From a virus, in the IMG/VR virus record IMGVR_UViG_3300037635_000489, positions 1-20,927 of that record: a stretch of DNA of 20,927 nt, one strand, 5' to 3'. Numbering within the stretch: position 1 is the first letter of the stretch; each line of letters starts with the position of its first letter. Positions 1 through 18,256 of this stretch are shown here, in pieces. Position numbers and translations under genes: made by a program. The notes under the pieces were generated by a model that was given only the letters and a program-made list of their open reading frames with translations, searched no databases and was not told the DNA's origin.

Positions 1-198
1 CTAAAAGCTAGGCAAACCGGGGCTAAGGTGGTAGCTATGGTGCATGATGAAATAGTTATCGAAAGTCCTAAGAAAAGTGTTGACTCAGTACATGAGTGTG
101 TTAAACTATCTATAGCTCAAGTGAACAATGAATATAAATTACGTTGTCAACTTGATTGTGACGTTGATATTGGAAATAACTGGAGTGAGGTTCATTAA
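1..198 (+). CDS. DNA polymerase, family A, C-terminal end (partial)
   Basis: The window opens inside this gene; the last 65 codons are present and end at TAA 196-198. The translated tail contains AMVHDEIVIESP, the VHDE signature of motif C in family A (Pol I/T7 gp5-like) polymerases, whose Asp binds a catalytic metal in the palm domain. The protein would be the replicative polymerase of the phage. The next gene starts directly after the stop codon (TAA-ATG), as expected for a polymerase/SSB operon. The start, any exonuclease domain and the rest of the palm lie outside the window. Motif C is seen directly; the role as phage replicase is inferred from context. Confidence 0.9.
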   Translation, partial: LKARQTGAKVVAMVHDEIVIESPKKSVDSVHECVKLSIAQVNNEYKLRCQLDCDVDIGNNWSEVH

Positions 199-627
199 AT
201 GTCAGGAAGAGCAAGTGTTAATTACCTAGAGGGTGATGTTTATTACGCCTACATCTTTGATTACAAAGATAAGTTTGACCGCTGGAGCATGGCTATGGCT
301 CTGCAAGGCGATCAGGTAGGCCATGCTAAGAAGATCGGCCTGAAGATTAAACAGTCAGAAGACAAGTTTGAGGGTCTTCCGTATGTTCAACTCAAGTCGA
401 ACTACCAACCTCAAGTTCTGGACAAGGACGGTTCAGAGTACAAAGGACCAACCATGCTTGCCCAAGGTACTAAGGGTGTGGCTAAACTGACCAGCAGACC
501 GTACAATAACAAGTTTGGTACAGGCGTCACCACCTTTATGAGTGCGGTAAAGCTGACCAATATTGTCGAGTACAAACCAGAAGGGGCTGAGTTAGACTCT
601 TCAGAGGAGTCTGACGAGGCTTTTTAG
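199..627 (+). CDS. single-stranded DNA-binding protein, T7 gp2.5-like
   Basis: This 142-residue protein follows the polymerase without a gap. It ends in an acidic tail closed by an aromatic residue (ELDSSEESDEAF), which is the hallmark of single-strand binding proteins of the T7 gp2.5 type, where the tail contacts polymerase and helicase and shields the DNA-binding groove. The body is rich in Lys, Tyr and Phe and has alternating polar/hydrophobic stretches compatible with an OB fold, for example near residues 14-35 and 108-125. It should coat unwound DNA at the fork and assist annealing. Size, tail and neighbour all fit. The body alone does not identify the family, so the call rests mainly on the tail and the gene order. 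The start ATG at 199 is the first possible one. Confidence 0.72.
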   Translation: MSGRASVNYLEGDVYYAYIFDYKDKFDRWSMAMALQGDQVGHAKKIGLKIKQSEDKFEGLPYVQLKSNYQPQVLDKDGSEYKGPTMLAQGTKGVAKLTSRPYNNKFGTGVTTFMSAVKLTNIVEYKPEGAELDSSEESDEAF

Positions 628-1244
628 TGGAGTACGGGCATTGGGATGTTGATCTCGTAGGAGATTTTGACCCTGACGATCACCTAGGGTTTGTCTACCA
701 GATCACTAATACCGAAAGCGGTAAGTCCTATATAGGCTGTAAACATCTTTGGAGATTTAGCAAAGGTAAACGAGTCAAGGCTAGTGCGTGGCAAAATTAT
801 TGCGGTAGTTCTAAGTACCTATCAGAAGACATTGAGGGTTTAGGTAAGGATAAGTTCTCGTTCCAAATCCTCATGCTTTGCGATAACAAGCGTAACCTGT
901 ACTATAACGAAATTAAGATGCAGGTGGAACTAGGGGTACTTGAGAGTGATAAATACTATAACGCCAACATAGGTGGAATACGTTTTTATCGTCCTGTTAA
1001 AAGCTACTACACTGATAAGCTGAGAGGCTACTTTAAGGGTATACGAAACCCTGCATACAGAGGGCCTTTCCTCGTAACCTTTGCCAAGGGTCATACTGTC
1101 AGGGTGGTGGATGTAACTATGAAAGATTGGTGTGCATCTTCTGGCTTGACCCATCAAAGGATTTCTGATTTGCGTACAGGTAAGCGAGATAGCTACAAAG
1201 GGATTGTAAAGGTAGAATATGAAAGCGAAATCGAAAAAGATTGA
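627..1244 (+). CDS. GIY-YIG endonuclease, Seg/homing type
   Basis: This 205-residue protein starts with GTG at 627, sharing one base with the SSB stop (TAGTG). Residues 21-37 hold the GIY-YIG core in the form GFVYQI...SYIG. A downstream WQNYCGSS segment and YYNEI with Glu95 supply the expected conserved positions, the Glu being the likely metal ligand. Towards the C-terminus, KGIRNPAYRG resembles a NUMOD3 element, and the last 40 residues (WCASSGLTHQRISDLRTG, then KGI) resemble a NUMOD1-like helix-turn-helix DNA-binding repeat. This is the architecture of free-standing phage homing endonucleases (T4 Seg type). It lies where T7-like phages keep their junction-resolving endonuclease, so a replication role is an alternative. 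The nuclease fold is well supported; the biological role is not. Confidence 0.85.
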   Translation: MEYGHWDVDLVGDFDPDDHLGFVYQITNTESGKSYIGCKHLWRFSKGKRVKASAWQNYCGSSKYLSEDIEGLGKDKFSFQILMLCDNKRNLYYNEIKMQVELGVLESDKYYNANIGGIRFYRPVKSYYTDKLRGYFKGIRNPAYRGPFLVTFAKGHTVRVVDVTMKDWCASSGLTHQRISDLRTGKRDSYKGIVKVEYESEIEKD

Positions 1245-2076
1245 TACCTTAGTAGAGGATATCTATTCTCTCCTAGACACTGGCACTAAGAGCCCTAATA
1301 AGGAAGCCCTCTTTGGTATGGCCTCTGATATGATGGAGTCTGTTAAAAAGCAGCTATGGTTTTCCACTTCTGATCGTAAGCCTACCTTACGGATGTCCAA
1401 CATAGGGAAACCGTGTGTACGTTCCCTGTGGTACGATATCAACGGGGATGAACAGGCAGAAGACTTCTCGCCTCAGACCCGTATCAAGTTCCTGATGGGG
1501 GATTTGGTAGAGGCTCTCATACTGTACCTCGCCAAAGAAGCTGGACACGATGTAACAGACCAGCAAAAGCAGATAGAGATTGACGGGATTAAGGGCCATA
1601 TCGACAGTCGTATAGACGGGAAACTTGTCGATGTTAAGTCTACCAGTTCGTATGGTATGCGTAAGTTTAAGGAAGGTACGCTACCAGACGATGACCCGTT
1701 TGGATACATAGACCAGATAAGCGGCTATGGAAATGCTTTGGGAGAGGATAGCGGAACCTTCCTAGCGTTTGATAAAAGCTCTGGAGAACTAGCAACCTAT
1801 ACCCATACGGAACTTTCAAACACTAAGGATCGTATTGCGTATGTAAAAGAGGCAGTAGCACAGGATGAAGCACCCGCAAGACCCTTTGATACCGTCTATG
1901 ATAAGTCTTATAGGCGAGATAAACTTGGAATAAACTGTTCCTACTGCGCTCACAAGATGACTTGTTGGGCAGACAAAGGGCTAGACCTGAAGTTCAGGGG
2001 GAACCGTCCTACGTTTTTCATTAAGCGTGACCCTAAAGAAAAGGGCAAGAGGCGGAGTCATGCAGAAACTTTCTGA
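1219..2076 (+). CDS. PD-(D/E)XK exonuclease with probable Fe-S cluster (Cas4/AddB-like)
   Basis: A 285-residue nuclease starting 26 bases inside the preceding gene, with AAAGG-like bases upstream of ATG 1219. The catalytic core GHIDSRIDG followed by LVDVKS (residues 126-141) gives the D...DxK pattern of RecB/Cas4 nucleases, and YIDQISGYG (Gln166) fits the downstream conserved Gln/Tyr helix. Four cysteines are placed as in Cas4, AddB and Dna2: one before the core (Cys66 in IGKPCVRSLWYD) and three after it (Cys240, Cys243, Cys249, spacing C-x2-C-x5-C). These normally hold a 4Fe-4S cluster that pins the nuclease fold. It probably replaces the T7 gp6 5'-3' exonuclease for host DNA degradation, primer removal or recombination. 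The fold is strongly supported; cluster binding is inferred from spacing. Confidence 0.85.
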   Translation: MKAKSKKIDTLVEDIYSLLDTGTKSPNKEALFGMASDMMESVKKQLWFSTSDRKPTLRMSNIGKPCVRSLWYDINGDEQAEDFSPQTRIKFLMGDLVEALILYLAKEAGHDVTDQQKQIEIDGIKGHIDSRIDGKLVDVKSTSSYGMRKFKEGTLPDDDPFGYIDQISGYGNALGEDSGTFLAFDKSSGELATYTHTELSNTKDRIAYVKEAVAQDEAPARPFDTVYDKSYRRDKLGINCSYCAHKMTCWADKGLDLKFRGNRPTFFIKRDPKEKGKRRSHAETF

Positions 2077-2233
2077 GGATATTTTATCTGACTTAGCTTC
2101 TGCTTACACCTCTGAACAAATCCTAGAGATACTAGGTATAAATACTGTTGAACTATTGTGCCTACTTTCGGAGCAGGTAGAGGATAACATTCACAAATTT
2201 GAATTGAGGCCACTGGATTGTAATGAATTTTAA
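2060..2233 (+). CDS. small hypothetical protein (57 residues)
   Basis: An acidic helical protein of 57 residues beginning MQKLSEDILSDLASAY. The open frame runs further upstream to 2027, but ATG 2060 is preferred because it follows a purine-rich GGCGGAG and overlaps the exonuclease end by only 17 bases. Residues 9-27 (SDLASAYTSEQILEILGIN) look like a helix-turn-helix-sized pair of helices: a run followed by SEQILEIL. It overlaps the reductase start by 11 bases. No family is recognised. It could be a small regulatory or partner protein, but nothing in the sequence proves a function. Confidence 0.6.
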   Translation: MQKLSEDILSDLASAYTSEQILEILGINTVELLCLLSEQVEDNIHKFELRPLDCNEF

Positions 2234-3926
2234 ATCTAATGAAAACCCTATGTTTCGCTCCAAGTTTAGCGAGGACATATTCAAACAGAAGTACGCTCAC
2301 GAGGACTGCACCACTTGGGCAGACTTGTCTAAAACATTGGTCAACGATGTTTGCGGCGATATCAAGTACATTAACGGGCAGTTAATGTCTAGGGGTGATA
2401 GGGATCAACTTATCCAGTACATCACCGACCTAAAATTCATACCCGGTGGTAGGTATCTTTACTACGCTGGCAGACCTAGTAAGTTTTTTAACAATTGTTT
2501 TCTACTCAAGGCAGAAGAAGACTCCAGAGAAGATTGGGCAAATTTATCATGGAAAGCAGAAAGTTGTCTTATGACAGGTGGGGGGATAGGCGTGGACTAT
2601 TCAGTATACCGTCCCTCTGGTTCAAGGTTGAAGTCCACAGGTGGTATAGCGAGTGGGCCAATTCCGAAGATGCTGATGATAAACGAGATAGGTCGCAGGG
2701 TGATGCAGGGGGGAAGTCGTAGGAGTGCTATATACGCCAGCCTTAACTGGCAGCACCAAGACGCTGGAGAGTTCTTAAGGGCTAAGAACTGGTATGATAT
2801 GCCTGTAGGTGACACTGGTGTTACTCTGGGTGACGTTAAGGAACAGGACTTTAACTTCCCCGCCCCCTTGGATATGACAAACGTAAGCCTTAACTACGAT
2901 ACAGATTGGCTTACACAATTTTGGGATACTGGAGATGTCGGGAATACTTTTCGCCAGAATGTTAAGCAAGCCCTATCGACAGGGGAACCCGGATTTAGCT
3001 TTAATTTTTTTGATAAGGAGAATGAAACGCTCCGTAATGCGTGTACTGAAGTGTCTAGCGCAGACGATTCGGACGTTTGCAACTTGGGTTCGATCAACCT
3101 TGGTAGGATAGAGTCTATTGCAGAGCTATCTGCTGTGTGTGATCTTGCTACCAAGTTTCTAATGTGTGGAACATTGAAAGCTAAGTTACCGTATGATAAA
3201 GTAGATAAGGTCAGGGAGAAGAACCGTAGACTAGGGCTAGGCTTGATGGGGGTACACGAGTGGCTCATCAAGAGAGGGTATAAGTATGAGGTTACAACTG
3301 AACTTCACAGATGGCTCAGTGTCTACAGAGGAGTTAGCGATGATACTAGTCGCAGTTATGCTAGGGAGCTATCTGTTAGTACTCCTGTGGCTAATAGAGC
3401 AATTGCCCCTACTGGTTCAATCGGTATCCTTGCTGGTACTAGCACTGGGGTTGAACCTATTTTTGCTGTGGCCTATCGTCGTAGGTATCTTAAGCACAGT
3501 AACCGTTGGCACTATCAGTATGTTGTAGACAGTGCGGCTCAGGAAATTATCGACCTGTATGGTACGAACCCTAACAAAATTGAATCCGCTTTGGACTTGG
3601 CTGAGGACTACGAGAGGCGTATAAAGTTCCAAGCAGATGTTCAAGACTATGTGGACATGGCTATATCTTCCACTATTAACCTACCATCATGGGGGTCAAA
3701 ATTAAACAATGCGGATACTGTTGAGGCATTTACCGATACTCTTGCTGCTTATGCTCATAGGTTGCGGGGTTTCACCGTGTATCCTGATGGATGCAGAGGG
3801 GGACAACCTCTTAGCTCTGTGCCGTATAGTGAAGCTGTGACCAAGCTAGGAGAAGAGTTTGAAGAGGGTGTAGAGACTCACGATATATGCAGCATTACGC
3901 AACGAGGTGGAACGTGCGGGGTGTAG
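2223..3926 (+). CDS. nrdJ: ribonucleotide reductase, class II (adenosylcobalamin-dependent), NrdJ-like
   Basis: A 567-residue reductase that converts ribonucleotides to deoxyribonucleotides for phage DNA synthesis. The catalytic set is visible: Cys92 in FNNCFLL and Cys286 in CNLGSINL (the redox pair), and Asn272-x-Cys274-x-Glu276 in NACTEV (radical cysteine and its partners on the finger loop). The APTGSIGILAGTSTGVEP loop near residues 395-412 matches the phosphate-binding region. GGGIGVDYS and GRRVMQGGSRR support class II over class I, and no small-subunit gene lies beside it. The C-terminus carries Cys556 and Cys565 (CSITQRGGTC), probably the swinging dithiol. There is no N-terminal ATP-cone, so allosteric activity control may be absent. 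A second possible start is ATG 2250. Enzyme identity is firm; class II assignment is strong but sequence-based. Confidence 0.9.
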   Translation: MNFKSNENPMFRSKFSEDIFKQKYAHEDCTTWADLSKTLVNDVCGDIKYINGQLMSRGDRDQLIQYITDLKFIPGGRYLYYAGRPSKFFNNCFLLKAEEDSREDWANLSWKAESCLMTGGGIGVDYSVYRPSGSRLKSTGGIASGPIPKMLMINEIGRRVMQGGSRRSAIYASLNWQHQDAGEFLRAKNWYDMPVGDTGVTLGDVKEQDFNFPAPLDMTNVSLNYDTDWLTQFWDTGDVGNTFRQNVKQALSTGEPGFSFNFFDKENETLRNACTEVSSADDSDVCNLGSINLGRIESIAELSAVCDLATKFLMCGTLKAKLPYDKVDKVREKNRRLGLGLMGVHEWLIKRGYKYEVTTELHRWLSVYRGVSDDTSRSYARELSVSTPVANRAIAPTGSIGILAGTSTGVEPIFAVAYRRRYLKHSNRWHYQYVVDSAAQEIIDLYGTNPNKIESALDLAEDYERRIKFQADVQDYVDMAISSTINLPSWGSKLNNADTVEAFTDTLAAYAHRLRGFTVYPDGCRGGQPLSSVPYSEAVTKLGEEFEEGVETHDICSITQRGGTCGV

Positions 3927-5351: not shown

Positions 5352-6239
5352 CTAGATTGCCTGTTGTCTGTCTTCTACAATTTGGTTCAAGTCTGCTTGT
5401 GTTGGTAGTAAACCACCTTGAGGCAAGTTTGCAATTTGTTGTGACGGGAGTAAGCCCCCTTGTCCGGGGCCTCCAAAAGTGGCAGATGAAGACCCCTCAC
5501 CCCCATATGTAGGAGCAGATGAAGACCCCTCACCCCCATATGTAGAAGTGGTTGATCCCCTTACCATTGCTTGTACTGCTGGACCTAATGCTCCTGAATC
5601 GCCTAGAAATCCAAGTATCCCGGTTGTCGCAGCCTTACCAAGAACGTGTCCTAGTTGTCCAAAGATACTCATCCCCGGAACCAATCCAGAGTCAGCCGCT
5701 ATATTTGCATTTGCCATGTTAGCAGCACGGCCATATGTGCTGTTAGCAAGAGGGGAAAAAGACAACCCTTGATTTGTTCCTCCAGTTGTTCCTCCAGTTG
5801 TTCCTCCGTCACCCATACTTTGCCCGTAGTTTCCCTGCCCTTCTCCAAGAACAGCCATAAACCCCAGACCTCCGTCAGCAGCTACTGCCCCCTCCCCTAT
5901 AGATGTGACACTGCTACCTGTTCCCGTAGACCCCGGAGCTGATGATCCCGTTCCTAATCCCATAGCAGCTAATCCTTGTGCTACTGCTGTGGGGCCTATT
6001 CCCATAGGTCCCGGTCCTGATGAACCTGAGGAACCTGATGAACCTGATGTAGCTGAAGCGACTGTTGATGGCCCAAACCCCATTGCCCAGTATTCAGGAA
6101 GACCTGTTATAGGGTTTACGCTACCAGCACCGCCCAACCGCCTGAGCAAGTCTGCCTCTGCTGCGCTAATATGAGCTACTTGACCACCTAGGGCAGCATT
6201 GTCCTCTCTGCGTCCAGCATTTGCTAATAGTCCATACAT
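5352..6239 (-). CDS. Gly/Ser-rich late structural protein with tandem repeats
   Basis: This 295-residue protein is dominated by Gly, Ser, Ala and Thr. The first 55 residues form the only compact block: REDNAALGGQVAHISAAEAD, then LLRRLGGAGSVNPITGLPEY. This reads like the conserved opening of proteins found near the end of late operons in marine podoviruses (an H-x-x-x-E-A-x-L-L...GG-x-G-x-x-NP-x-TGLPEY pattern, recalled rather than searched). The remainder has simple repeats: SGSSGSSGSSG (residues about 66-76), GGTTGGTTGGT (about 146-156) and two copies of an 11-residue unit TYGGEGSSSAP (about 230-252). A hydrophobic patch (GMSIFGQLGHVLG) lies near residue 190. It is probably a flexible virion or tail-associated protein. 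It ends two bases before the frameshifted gene. Confidence 0.65.
   Translation of the reverse strand: MYGLLANAGRREDNAALGGQVAHISAAEADLLRRLGGAGSVNPITGLPEYWAMGFGPSTVASATSGSSGSSGSSGPGPMGIGPTAVAQGLAAMGLGTGSSAPGSTGTGSSVTSIGEGAVAADGGLGFMAVLGEGQGNYGQSMGDGGTTGGTTGGTNQGLSFSPLANSTYGRAANMANANIAADSGLVPGMSIFGQLGHVLGKAATTGILGFLGDSGALGPAVQAMVRGSTTSTYGGEGSSSAPTYGGEGSSSATFGGPGQGGLLPSQQIANLPQGGLLPTQADLNQIVEDRQQAI
5482..5547. repeat. 33-bp direct repeat, two copies
   Basis: Two adjacent 33-base units (5482-5514 and 5515-5547) differ at a single base. They encode 11 residues of the TYGGEGSSSAP type in the Gly/Ser-rich protein. Near identity at DNA level points to a recent in-frame duplication by slippage or recombination. 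Confidence 0.9.
5774..5806. repeat. 12-bp tandem repeat
   Basis: Almost three copies of TTGTTCCTCCAG lie head to tail inside the Gly/Ser-rich gene and encode GGTTGGTTGGT. The unit length keeps the frame, so copy number can vary without breaking the gene. Confidence 0.85.
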
Positions 6240-17293: not shown

Positions 17294-18256
17294 CTAGGTA
17301 AGATCGTAAACTGCACCGTGTCCTTTTTCGTTGTCCACCTGTAAGGTGTACTCAGCGATAATAGCACGTTGCTCACCGTCAGAAGTACTAGCGACTTCAC
17401 GGGTTGCAAACGGACGCAAGTAAGCGATCTTGTAGTACTCAGGATCAAGAAGCCATACATCCCTAGCCCGTTGGAAACGGTTAGGAACAACAGCCATCTC
17501 ACCAAAGTCGGATACATAGATATCCATACCACCGATTATACGTTGATCGGCAGTGTCGGTCCAGTTAGAAACACCGCTTGCTCCGCCTACACCTACAAAG
17601 CTAGAAAACGTCTGCTTCTTCGCAGGGGCCATCATCAAGTACTTAGTATCAGCACCGTTGTTGTAAGCAAGAAGAATCGTAGCTTTCAACAGTGTTTCCG
17701 TAAAGGCACGTTGCGTACCATCAGTACGAGCAGCACCCGCACCGCCAGAACCAGCCGCCGTACCACCACTACCAACACTGGCATTAGTGGTTATATAGGA
17801 GGCAAAAGAGCCAAGTTTACGAACAGTACTATCCGCAGACATAGCCGTTTTAGCTTGATTGGTTCCTATAAGAGAGGTTTCCATATCTCGCTTTAGTTCT
17901 TTAGCCCGTTTGGACATCTGGTAAGCAAGCTCTTCCTTACGACCAGCTTTAGACACGGCGTCTAACGTACCAGAAACCAGCGTAGTTTTCAAGCTGATCT
18001 GGCAGATATTACCAAGTCTAGTAGTTGCGGCAGGTTCGGCAGCAGTAAGCGTTGAACCTTCCTCGTTAAAGTTAGTAGCGGCAGCAGCAGTAAGAGCGTC
18101 TGTTTGCCACTCGTGATTTACAGCAGTGGCATCAGTCCGACCACCCATAGTCATAAAGGGCGTGTCTGTCGGAGAGATGTCGTATATTACGTTCTCAAGG
18201 TCTTCTCTAAGACCTGCTGAGGAGAATGTAACATATACTCCAGTAGGTTGTGCCAT
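17294..18256 (-). CDS. major capsid protein (HK97 fold, DUF5309/SU10-type)
   Basis: A 320-residue capsid protein. The opening, EDLENVIYDISPTDTPFMTM then NHEWQTDAL, matches the N-terminal pattern of DUF5309-type capsid proteins (an early 'I...I.p..TPF......+.....W' motif). Helical stretches with GRKEELAYQMSKRAKELKRD (about 118-137) suit the HK97 spine helix. A Gly/Ala-rich insertion lies near residues 160-180 (GSGGTAAGSGGAGAARTDG). The C-terminal part (REVASTSDGEQRAIIAEYTL) fits the final beta strands. Its ATG is preceded by AAAGG. It is flanked by scaffold upstream and a strong terminator downstream, the classic capsid setting. Family-level recognition is by memory of the motif. Confidence 0.88.
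   Translation of the reverse strand: MAQPTGVYVTFSSAGLREDLENVIYDISPTDTPFMTMGGRTDATAVNHEWQTDALTAAAATNFNEEGSTLTAAEPAATTRLGNICQISLKTTLVSGTLDAVSKAGRKEELAYQMSKRAKELKRDMETSLIGTNQAKTAMSADSTVRKLGSFASYITTNASVGSGGTAAGSGGAGAARTDGTQRAFTETLLKATILLAYNNGADTKYLMMAPAKKQTFSSFVGVGGASGVSNWTDTADQRIIGGMDIYVSDFGEMAVVPNRFQRARDVWLLDPEYYKIAYLRPFATREVASTSDGEQRAIIAEYTLQVDNEKGHGAVYDLT

Follow-up and report, generated by a model that had tools for sequence, protein, structure and literature searches.

The window analyzed here, meaning the whole stretch of viral DNA under study, is a 20.9-kb fragment (20,927 nucleotides) that opens with genes of a phage replication module. The genes and features that concern us are as follows, all on the plus strand.

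1..198, plus strand: C-terminal end of a family A DNA polymerase (PF00476, E 1.8e-10)
199..627, plus strand: ssDNA-binding-like (SSB-like) protein (phrog_112, E 3.6e-9)
627..1244, plus strand: GIY-YIG (SegE-type) nuclease (PF19835, E 1.9e-29)
1219..2076, plus strand: Cas4-domain (PD-(D/E)XK, four-Cys) exonuclease, 285 aa (PHROG 1990, E 3.5e-40; model nearest to Cas4 SSO0001)
1414..1416, plus strand: Cys66, the classical N-terminal fourth ligand position (GKPC); the column is Cys in 74/201 proteins
1594..1638, plus strand: catalytic motifs GHID (126-129) to DVK (138-140), conserved in 200-201/201
1714..1728, plus strand: QISGY (166-170), the QhXXY motif; Q166 and Y170 in 201/201
1882..1884, plus strand: residue 222, Pro in the window protein; the column is Cys in 247/333 relatives
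1936..1965, plus strand: C240-x2-C243-x5-C249; triplet kept in 331/333 relatives
2223..3926, plus strand: ribonucleotide reductase, large-subunit/class II type (PF02867; NrdJ_Z is the best NCBIfam match, under its cut-off)

The ORF at 1219-2076 encodes a protein of 285 aa with just four cysteines, at positions 66, 240, 243 and 249. Its start is sound, since the alignments with the SIO1 and ICBM1 proteins begin at residue 1. The RecB-type nuclease motifs are intact (GHID, DVK and Q166-ISG-Y170), and QISGY fits the motif of Cas4 proteins that is named QhXXY in PMC4176176. The original prediction placed four cysteines with C...C-x2-C-x5-C spacing around a PD-(D/E)XK core, and both the translation and the conservation described below confirm this arrangement.

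By sequence, the protein belongs to a known family. A PHROGs search assigned it to phrog_1990, ‘Cas4-domain exonuclease’ (E 3.5e-40, residues 34-254 on profile positions 13-240 of 290), which is also matched by 53/53 members of a set of relatives; the second match is to phrog_1706, ‘CRISPR/Cas system associated’ (E 2.5e-15). The protein reaches no curated cut-off in Pfam or NCBIfam: Pfam gave PDDEXK_1 under its cut-off and a weaker ferredoxin-type match, and NCBIfam gave no match. We dismissed PF05187 (Fer4_ETF_QO; E 0.085, under the cut-off) as noise on the Cys stretch. The Pfam Cas4 family, PF01930, is absent from the query's matches at E 0.1, and it matches only 4 of the 53 relatives, weakly (best E 0.0074). 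The HMM comparison that had been proposed supports a Cas4 relationship through PHROG 1990 but not through PF01930. With tblastn, the gene was found in 82 of 50,697 phage records, with ∼40% identity to SIO1, ICBM1 and P12053L, and it is annotated as an exonuclease or Cas4-domain exonuclease in several of the matched records and as hypothetical in others. The exonuclease gene is ordinary in this respect, as marine phages of the Cobavirus type (SIO1, ICBM1) have it annotated already. The Cobavirus-type roseophage exonuclease (SIO1 NP_064755.1, ICBM1; PHROG 1990) shares with the window protein its family, length, nuclease motifs, C-terminal Cys triplet and location after the polymerase; however, the two are only ∼40% identical, and C66 is missing from the SIO1 type, which carries the column-222 Cys.

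Solved structures gave no match by sequence for the query, and only noise for the profile. Two confident AlphaFold2 models, one for the window protein (pLDDT 91.6) and one for L061, which is of the SIO1 type (pLDDT 94.8), were compared with known folds, and with Foldseek and VIA-align the window protein has the RecB-type PD-(D/E)XK fold. The top four Foldseek rows for the window model are all chains of the Cas4 protein SSO0001 (best E 6.2e-7, 4ic1), and VIA-align against 4ic1 gave a Z of 11.6 and an rmsd of 3.7 for 182 aligned residues spanning 39-256, a stretch that includes the Cys region. Next in VIA-align come the Cas4/Cas1/Cas2 complex, MGME1, lambda exonuclease, AdnA, Exo5, AddB and Dna2; the Z scores are 9.1 for Pcal_0546, 8.2 for 3l0a, 7.3 for AddB and 7.1 for Dna2. 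MGME1 is within 1 Z of the top, and lambda exonuclease and MGME1 are within about 1-2.5 Z of Cas4; neither of these two is known to have the four-Cys set. The SIO1-type model gave the same fold picture (Z 10.8). The PHROG 1990 match, together with a model fold closest to SSO0001, upholds the call of a Cas4-type four-Cys PD-(D/E)XK nuclease.

The window protein shares with Cas4 (SSO0001, Pcal_0546; Z 11.6 and 9.1) the fold, the QhXXY motif and the set of one N-terminal and three C-terminal cysteines, but differs in its lack of a CRISPR context, its lack of a PF01930 match and its longer N-terminal helical part. Similarly, it shares the fold and the four-Cys iron-staple arrangement with the nuclease domains of AddB and Dna2, but these are fused to a helicase and the window protein is a single polypeptide in which a helicase domain is absent.

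Conservation of the cysteines depends on how far from the query one looks. Among the close rows (the query and its relatives at about 60-70%, n = 31), C66 is present in all 30 rows that cover it, and C240, C243 and C249 are present in 28 of the 29 that reach that region; the one exception is L037, whose frame is broken at the C-terminus, and rows L040 and L041 are truncated. Across 201 distinct full-length proteins, G126, K140, Q166 and Y170 are invariant, D129 and D138 are found in 200/201 and the C240/C243/C249 triplet in 199/201, and on the basis of this conservation we rejected the idea that the cysteines occur by chance. The C66 column, however, is Cys in just 74/201. Poor conservation of the four Cys among close homologues, which the original prediction had named as the result that would speak against it, is not seen; it is in the wider relatives that C66 is mostly gone, and there another Cys accompanies the loss.

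We therefore give the distribution of this fourth Cys in 333 distinct full-length proteins, drawn from eight viral scans, one genome scan and named phages. Because the scans used short query patterns, this is a sample that leans to close relatives of the queries, among the matches listed, rather than the whole family. Exact duplicates were collapsed, and proteins were excluded for internal stops (L137, L240, L335, L370), for a broken C-terminus (L037) or for a length below 250 aa (L023, L036, L038-L041, a few others, and L470 with 249 aa). L042 was counted as C66-only, since its Cys at -25 is unrelated.

The C-terminal triplet is present in 331 of the 333 sampled relatives, and every one of these 331 proteins has at least one further Cys at one of two sites. 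The largest group, 180/331, has the column-222 Cys, which precedes the triplet by 17-18 residues, and none at or next to the C66 site; 84/331 have the N-terminal Cys only (83 at the C66 position, and phage YS40 one residue earlier); 60/331, the HMO-2011 type, combine the column-222 Cys with an N-terminal one that is displaced by one position; and 7/331 have C66 and the column-222 Cys together. No triplet protein (0/331) lacks both. Thus, the set of one N-terminal and three C-terminal Cys (C-x2-C-x5-C) found in the window protein is incomplete at its N-terminal site in 180/333 relatives. In all 247 proteins that have it, the column-222 Cys aligns to one and the same column, and none of the 83 C66-only proteins has a Cys there. 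An alignment-free recount agrees with these numbers once its five apparent exceptions are inspected: in four, the N-terminal Cys lies beyond the stretch that was searched, and the fifth is YS40.

Loss of C66 is evident in SIO1, ICBM1, HTVC115P, HTVC104P and phiM6, which in place of GKPCxRxLW have GKPxRQLW or a similar sequence that is shorter by one residue. The proteins of SIO1, HTVC115P and phiM6 have four Cys in total, namely the triplet and one Cys 17-18 residues before it. The two proteins without the triplet, from the cyanophages LPP-2 (L058:2917-3798) and Pf-WMP3 (L059:2914-3774), have lost both fourth positions as well, and they retain the D...DxK...Q...Y residues; both genes adjoin an ERF-type recombination gene. 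In the HMO-2011 type (L053:4950-5804 and 59 more), Cys replaces a conserved Arg after the C66 site (GRPxCQLW) in 60/60 proteins. Two contigs of the Flavobacteriaceae MAG SAT25, L467 and L468, carry two nuclease classes, column-222 only and HMO-2011 type; these are probably phage contigs that were binned with the MAG.

By DSSP, a short hairpin begins in the models a few residues after position 222 (224 in SIO1), and its second strand leads to Cys240 (241 in SIO1). Judged from the DSSP strings alone, residue 222 would therefore be near the cluster. In SSO0001, as described in PMC4176176, the N-terminal Cys32 sits at the apex of a pyramid that has the three C-terminal Cys as its base; this is the staple. 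The four Cys of the window protein would ligate a metal centre with a structural role, most likely an Fe-S cluster, which may pin the C-terminal subdomain onto the core. In the query's clade the fourth ligand would be the classical Cys66; in most of the sampled family, the column-222 Cys at the base of the predicted hairpin to Cys240 would take over, and the whole Cys set would then lie within the C-terminal subdomain, with the staple to the N-terminus gone.

The metal itself might be zinc rather than an Fe-S cluster. The DUF3799 nuclease 3L0A, which has a common fold and four-Cys site with the window protein, was reported with zinc in the crystal in the section of Zhang et al. 2012 that describes it (PMC3466216), and this structure is in our fold list; the DUF3799 family (PF12684) matches 6/53 relatives weakly, and four Cys within about 30 residues, as in the column-222 proteins, would suit zinc too. 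We consider zinc unlikely: PF12684 does not match the query itself at E 0.1, Fe-S Cas4 proteins are the best matches by fold, and the authors of the 3L0A report themselves allow that its zinc may be an artefact of overexpression (PMC3466216, same section).

We demonstrate a complementary Cys pattern in these proteins, along with their conservation, sequence and fold prediction. The two Cys may be alternative ligands; if instead the pattern was inherited by chance, the proteins without C66 would use a three-Cys centre or some other fourth ligand. To follow the changes, we used a tree of 83 representatives from which the trait columns had been removed. It was rebuilt without YS40, Seurat and the two cyanophages, because their very long branches had met in the first tree. 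On this tree there are at least four changes of the C66 state and five of the column-222 Cys; an earlier tree of 68 rows with distant outgroups, in which long branches meet, gave 3 and 4 changes. Only three independent pairs are on well-supported branches, and all three are opposite in direction; with three pairs the sign test cannot attain significance (p 0.25). This small number of independent changes speaks for chance inheritance, and the HMO-2011 type, which keeps both a shifted N-terminal and a 222 Cys in 60/60 proteins, indicates that one of the two may be no ligand. Nevertheless, chance inheritance does not readily account for the presence of at least one of the two Cys in 331/331 triplet proteins, for the confinement of all 247 column-222 Cys to one column (among the 247 proteins without the classical N-terminal motif, Cys occurs in at most 12 at any other offset within the 60 residues ahead of the triplet), or for the absence of both fourth Cys in the two proteins that lack the triplet. 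We regard it as a possible but rather doubtful account.

We favor, with moderate confidence, a history in which the fourth ligand moved several times between Cys66 and column 222 via five-Cys intermediates of a kind that present-day phages retain, such that the moved cluster would no longer staple both ends of the nuclease domain. Depending on where the tree is rooted, either Cys66 was regained or the column-222 Cys arose more than once. The double-Cys proteins L013 and L396 lie inside the query's own clade, and therefore a path via a five-Cys state exists; L023 and L036, excluded for length, also show both fourth Cys. On the sequence evidence, the fourth metal ligand would have moved, and in most sampled relatives the cluster would not tie the N-terminus to the C-terminus.

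The genes around the exonuclease bear on its function. In the window the order is the polymerase A end, the SSB-like gene, the GIY-YIG nuclease, the exonuclease, a small ORF and the ribonucleotide reductase; in SIO1, ICBM1 and CRP-4 it is the polymerase, one or two unnamed genes, the exonuclease, endonuclease I, MazG and a B12-dependent reductase. Thus, the exonuclease is followed by endonuclease I in the SIO1 type, but by a small ORF in the window. In 39/42 related contigs the GIY-YIG gene is flanked by the SSB-like gene and the exonuclease, and the remaining 3/42 begin within the exonuclease gene; it looks like a fixed gene rather than a sporadic homing gene. The SIO1 endonuclease I has no match in the 42 related stretches, although it lies 3' of the exonuclease in several sister phages, and the GIY-YIG gene may be a stand-in for the T7-type endonuclease I. 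Among seven records (the window and six relatives recorded as complete genomes), endonuclease I (PF05367) is found in six, the sole exception being the window record, a 20.9-kb fragment. Elsewhere in the window, the major capsid protein (17294-18256) is closest to those of uncultured Manatee Spring phages (50%) and then pelagiphage HTVC106P (42%); its nearest relatives are not the Cobaviruses that lead for the exonuclease, and so the virus looks mosaic. Two adjoining 33-bp repeats, 97% alike, lie at 5482-5547 inside a minus-strand ORF (5352-6239).

The gene had also been proposed to stand in place of a T7 gp6 exonuclease. T7 gp6 itself is assigned to phrog_107, which is not among the query's own PHROGs matches at E 1 and was found in 0/7 of the same records; we therefore rejected the possibility that the window protein is a gp6-type exonuclease. 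The two belong to different families; what they share is a presumed role and a place, after the polymerase, in a T7-like replication module. Because the gp6 family is absent from 7/7 records searched, it is reasonable to describe the exonuclease as being in place of gp6, and its location just after the polymerase and SSB-like genes fits this description; from absence and position, it is plausible that the exonuclease does the job of T7 gp6.

No cas gene is present among the other window ORFs that were scanned, and there is no CRISPR-like repeat array in the 20.9-kb window, in agreement with the original prediction that no CRISPR genes are near; a CRISPR-associated Cas4 was rejected on these grounds. 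The use of the fold is thus stand-alone, as had been suggested, but it is not new, since it is annotated in SIO1, P12053L and others, and Cas4 proteins of mobile elements and phages are already treated in the review PMC5704561, which also proposes anti-defence roles for mobile-element Cas4. A Campylobacter phage Cas4 has been linked to spacer acquisition (PMC4283603), and the gene might by analogy act against host defences such as CRISPR, a role that has been proposed for the Cas4-like proteins of Campylobacter phages, rather than in replication or recombination. We think this very improbable, given that the exonuclease is at a fixed spot in the replication operon of the query's clade, between other replication genes, and that its location is similar in SIO1, ICBM1, CRP-4 and HMO-2011.

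We conclude that the gene quite probably encodes a stand-alone Cas4/AddB-type exonuclease of a marine phage replication module, with a metal centre, a gp6-like job and a swap of the fourth ligand between C66 and column 222, the latter being the site in most sampled relatives. Its catalytic core (GxxD, DxK, QhXXY) would cut DNA with a divalent metal by the known Cas4/RecB chemistry, probably as an exonuclease that runs 5'-to-3' and works alongside the polymerase and SSB of the phage, a polarity that we assume from SSO0001 and Pcal_0546. The enzyme may process replication and recombination intermediates as well as host DNA, as gp6 would. Cutting may not need the cluster, because Cys mutants of Pcal_0546 and SSO1391 retain nuclease activity in the experiments of PMC4176176.

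The original call of the gene is right, and the exonuclease gene by itself is one more member of a known family; the relocation of the ligand is the apparently unreported part. We found no report of such a swap in open-access titles and abstracts, a search that leaves most subscription papers and preprints outside its scope and is not proof of absence. The swap matters in that it contrasts with published views: the four Cys of Cas4 proteins are described as conserved in all members (PMC5704561), and the four-Cys staple is treated as needed for stability in AddB and SSO0001 (PMC3466216), yet in Pcal_0546 and SSO1391 the Cys are dispensable for activity (PMC4176176). If the relocation is true, the proteins with a moved ligand are a natural test of the staple's purpose. 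With both ligand arrangements, double-Cys intermediates and two members that have none of the four Cys, the family would let one ask directly whether the cluster has to span the domain ends or need only exist.
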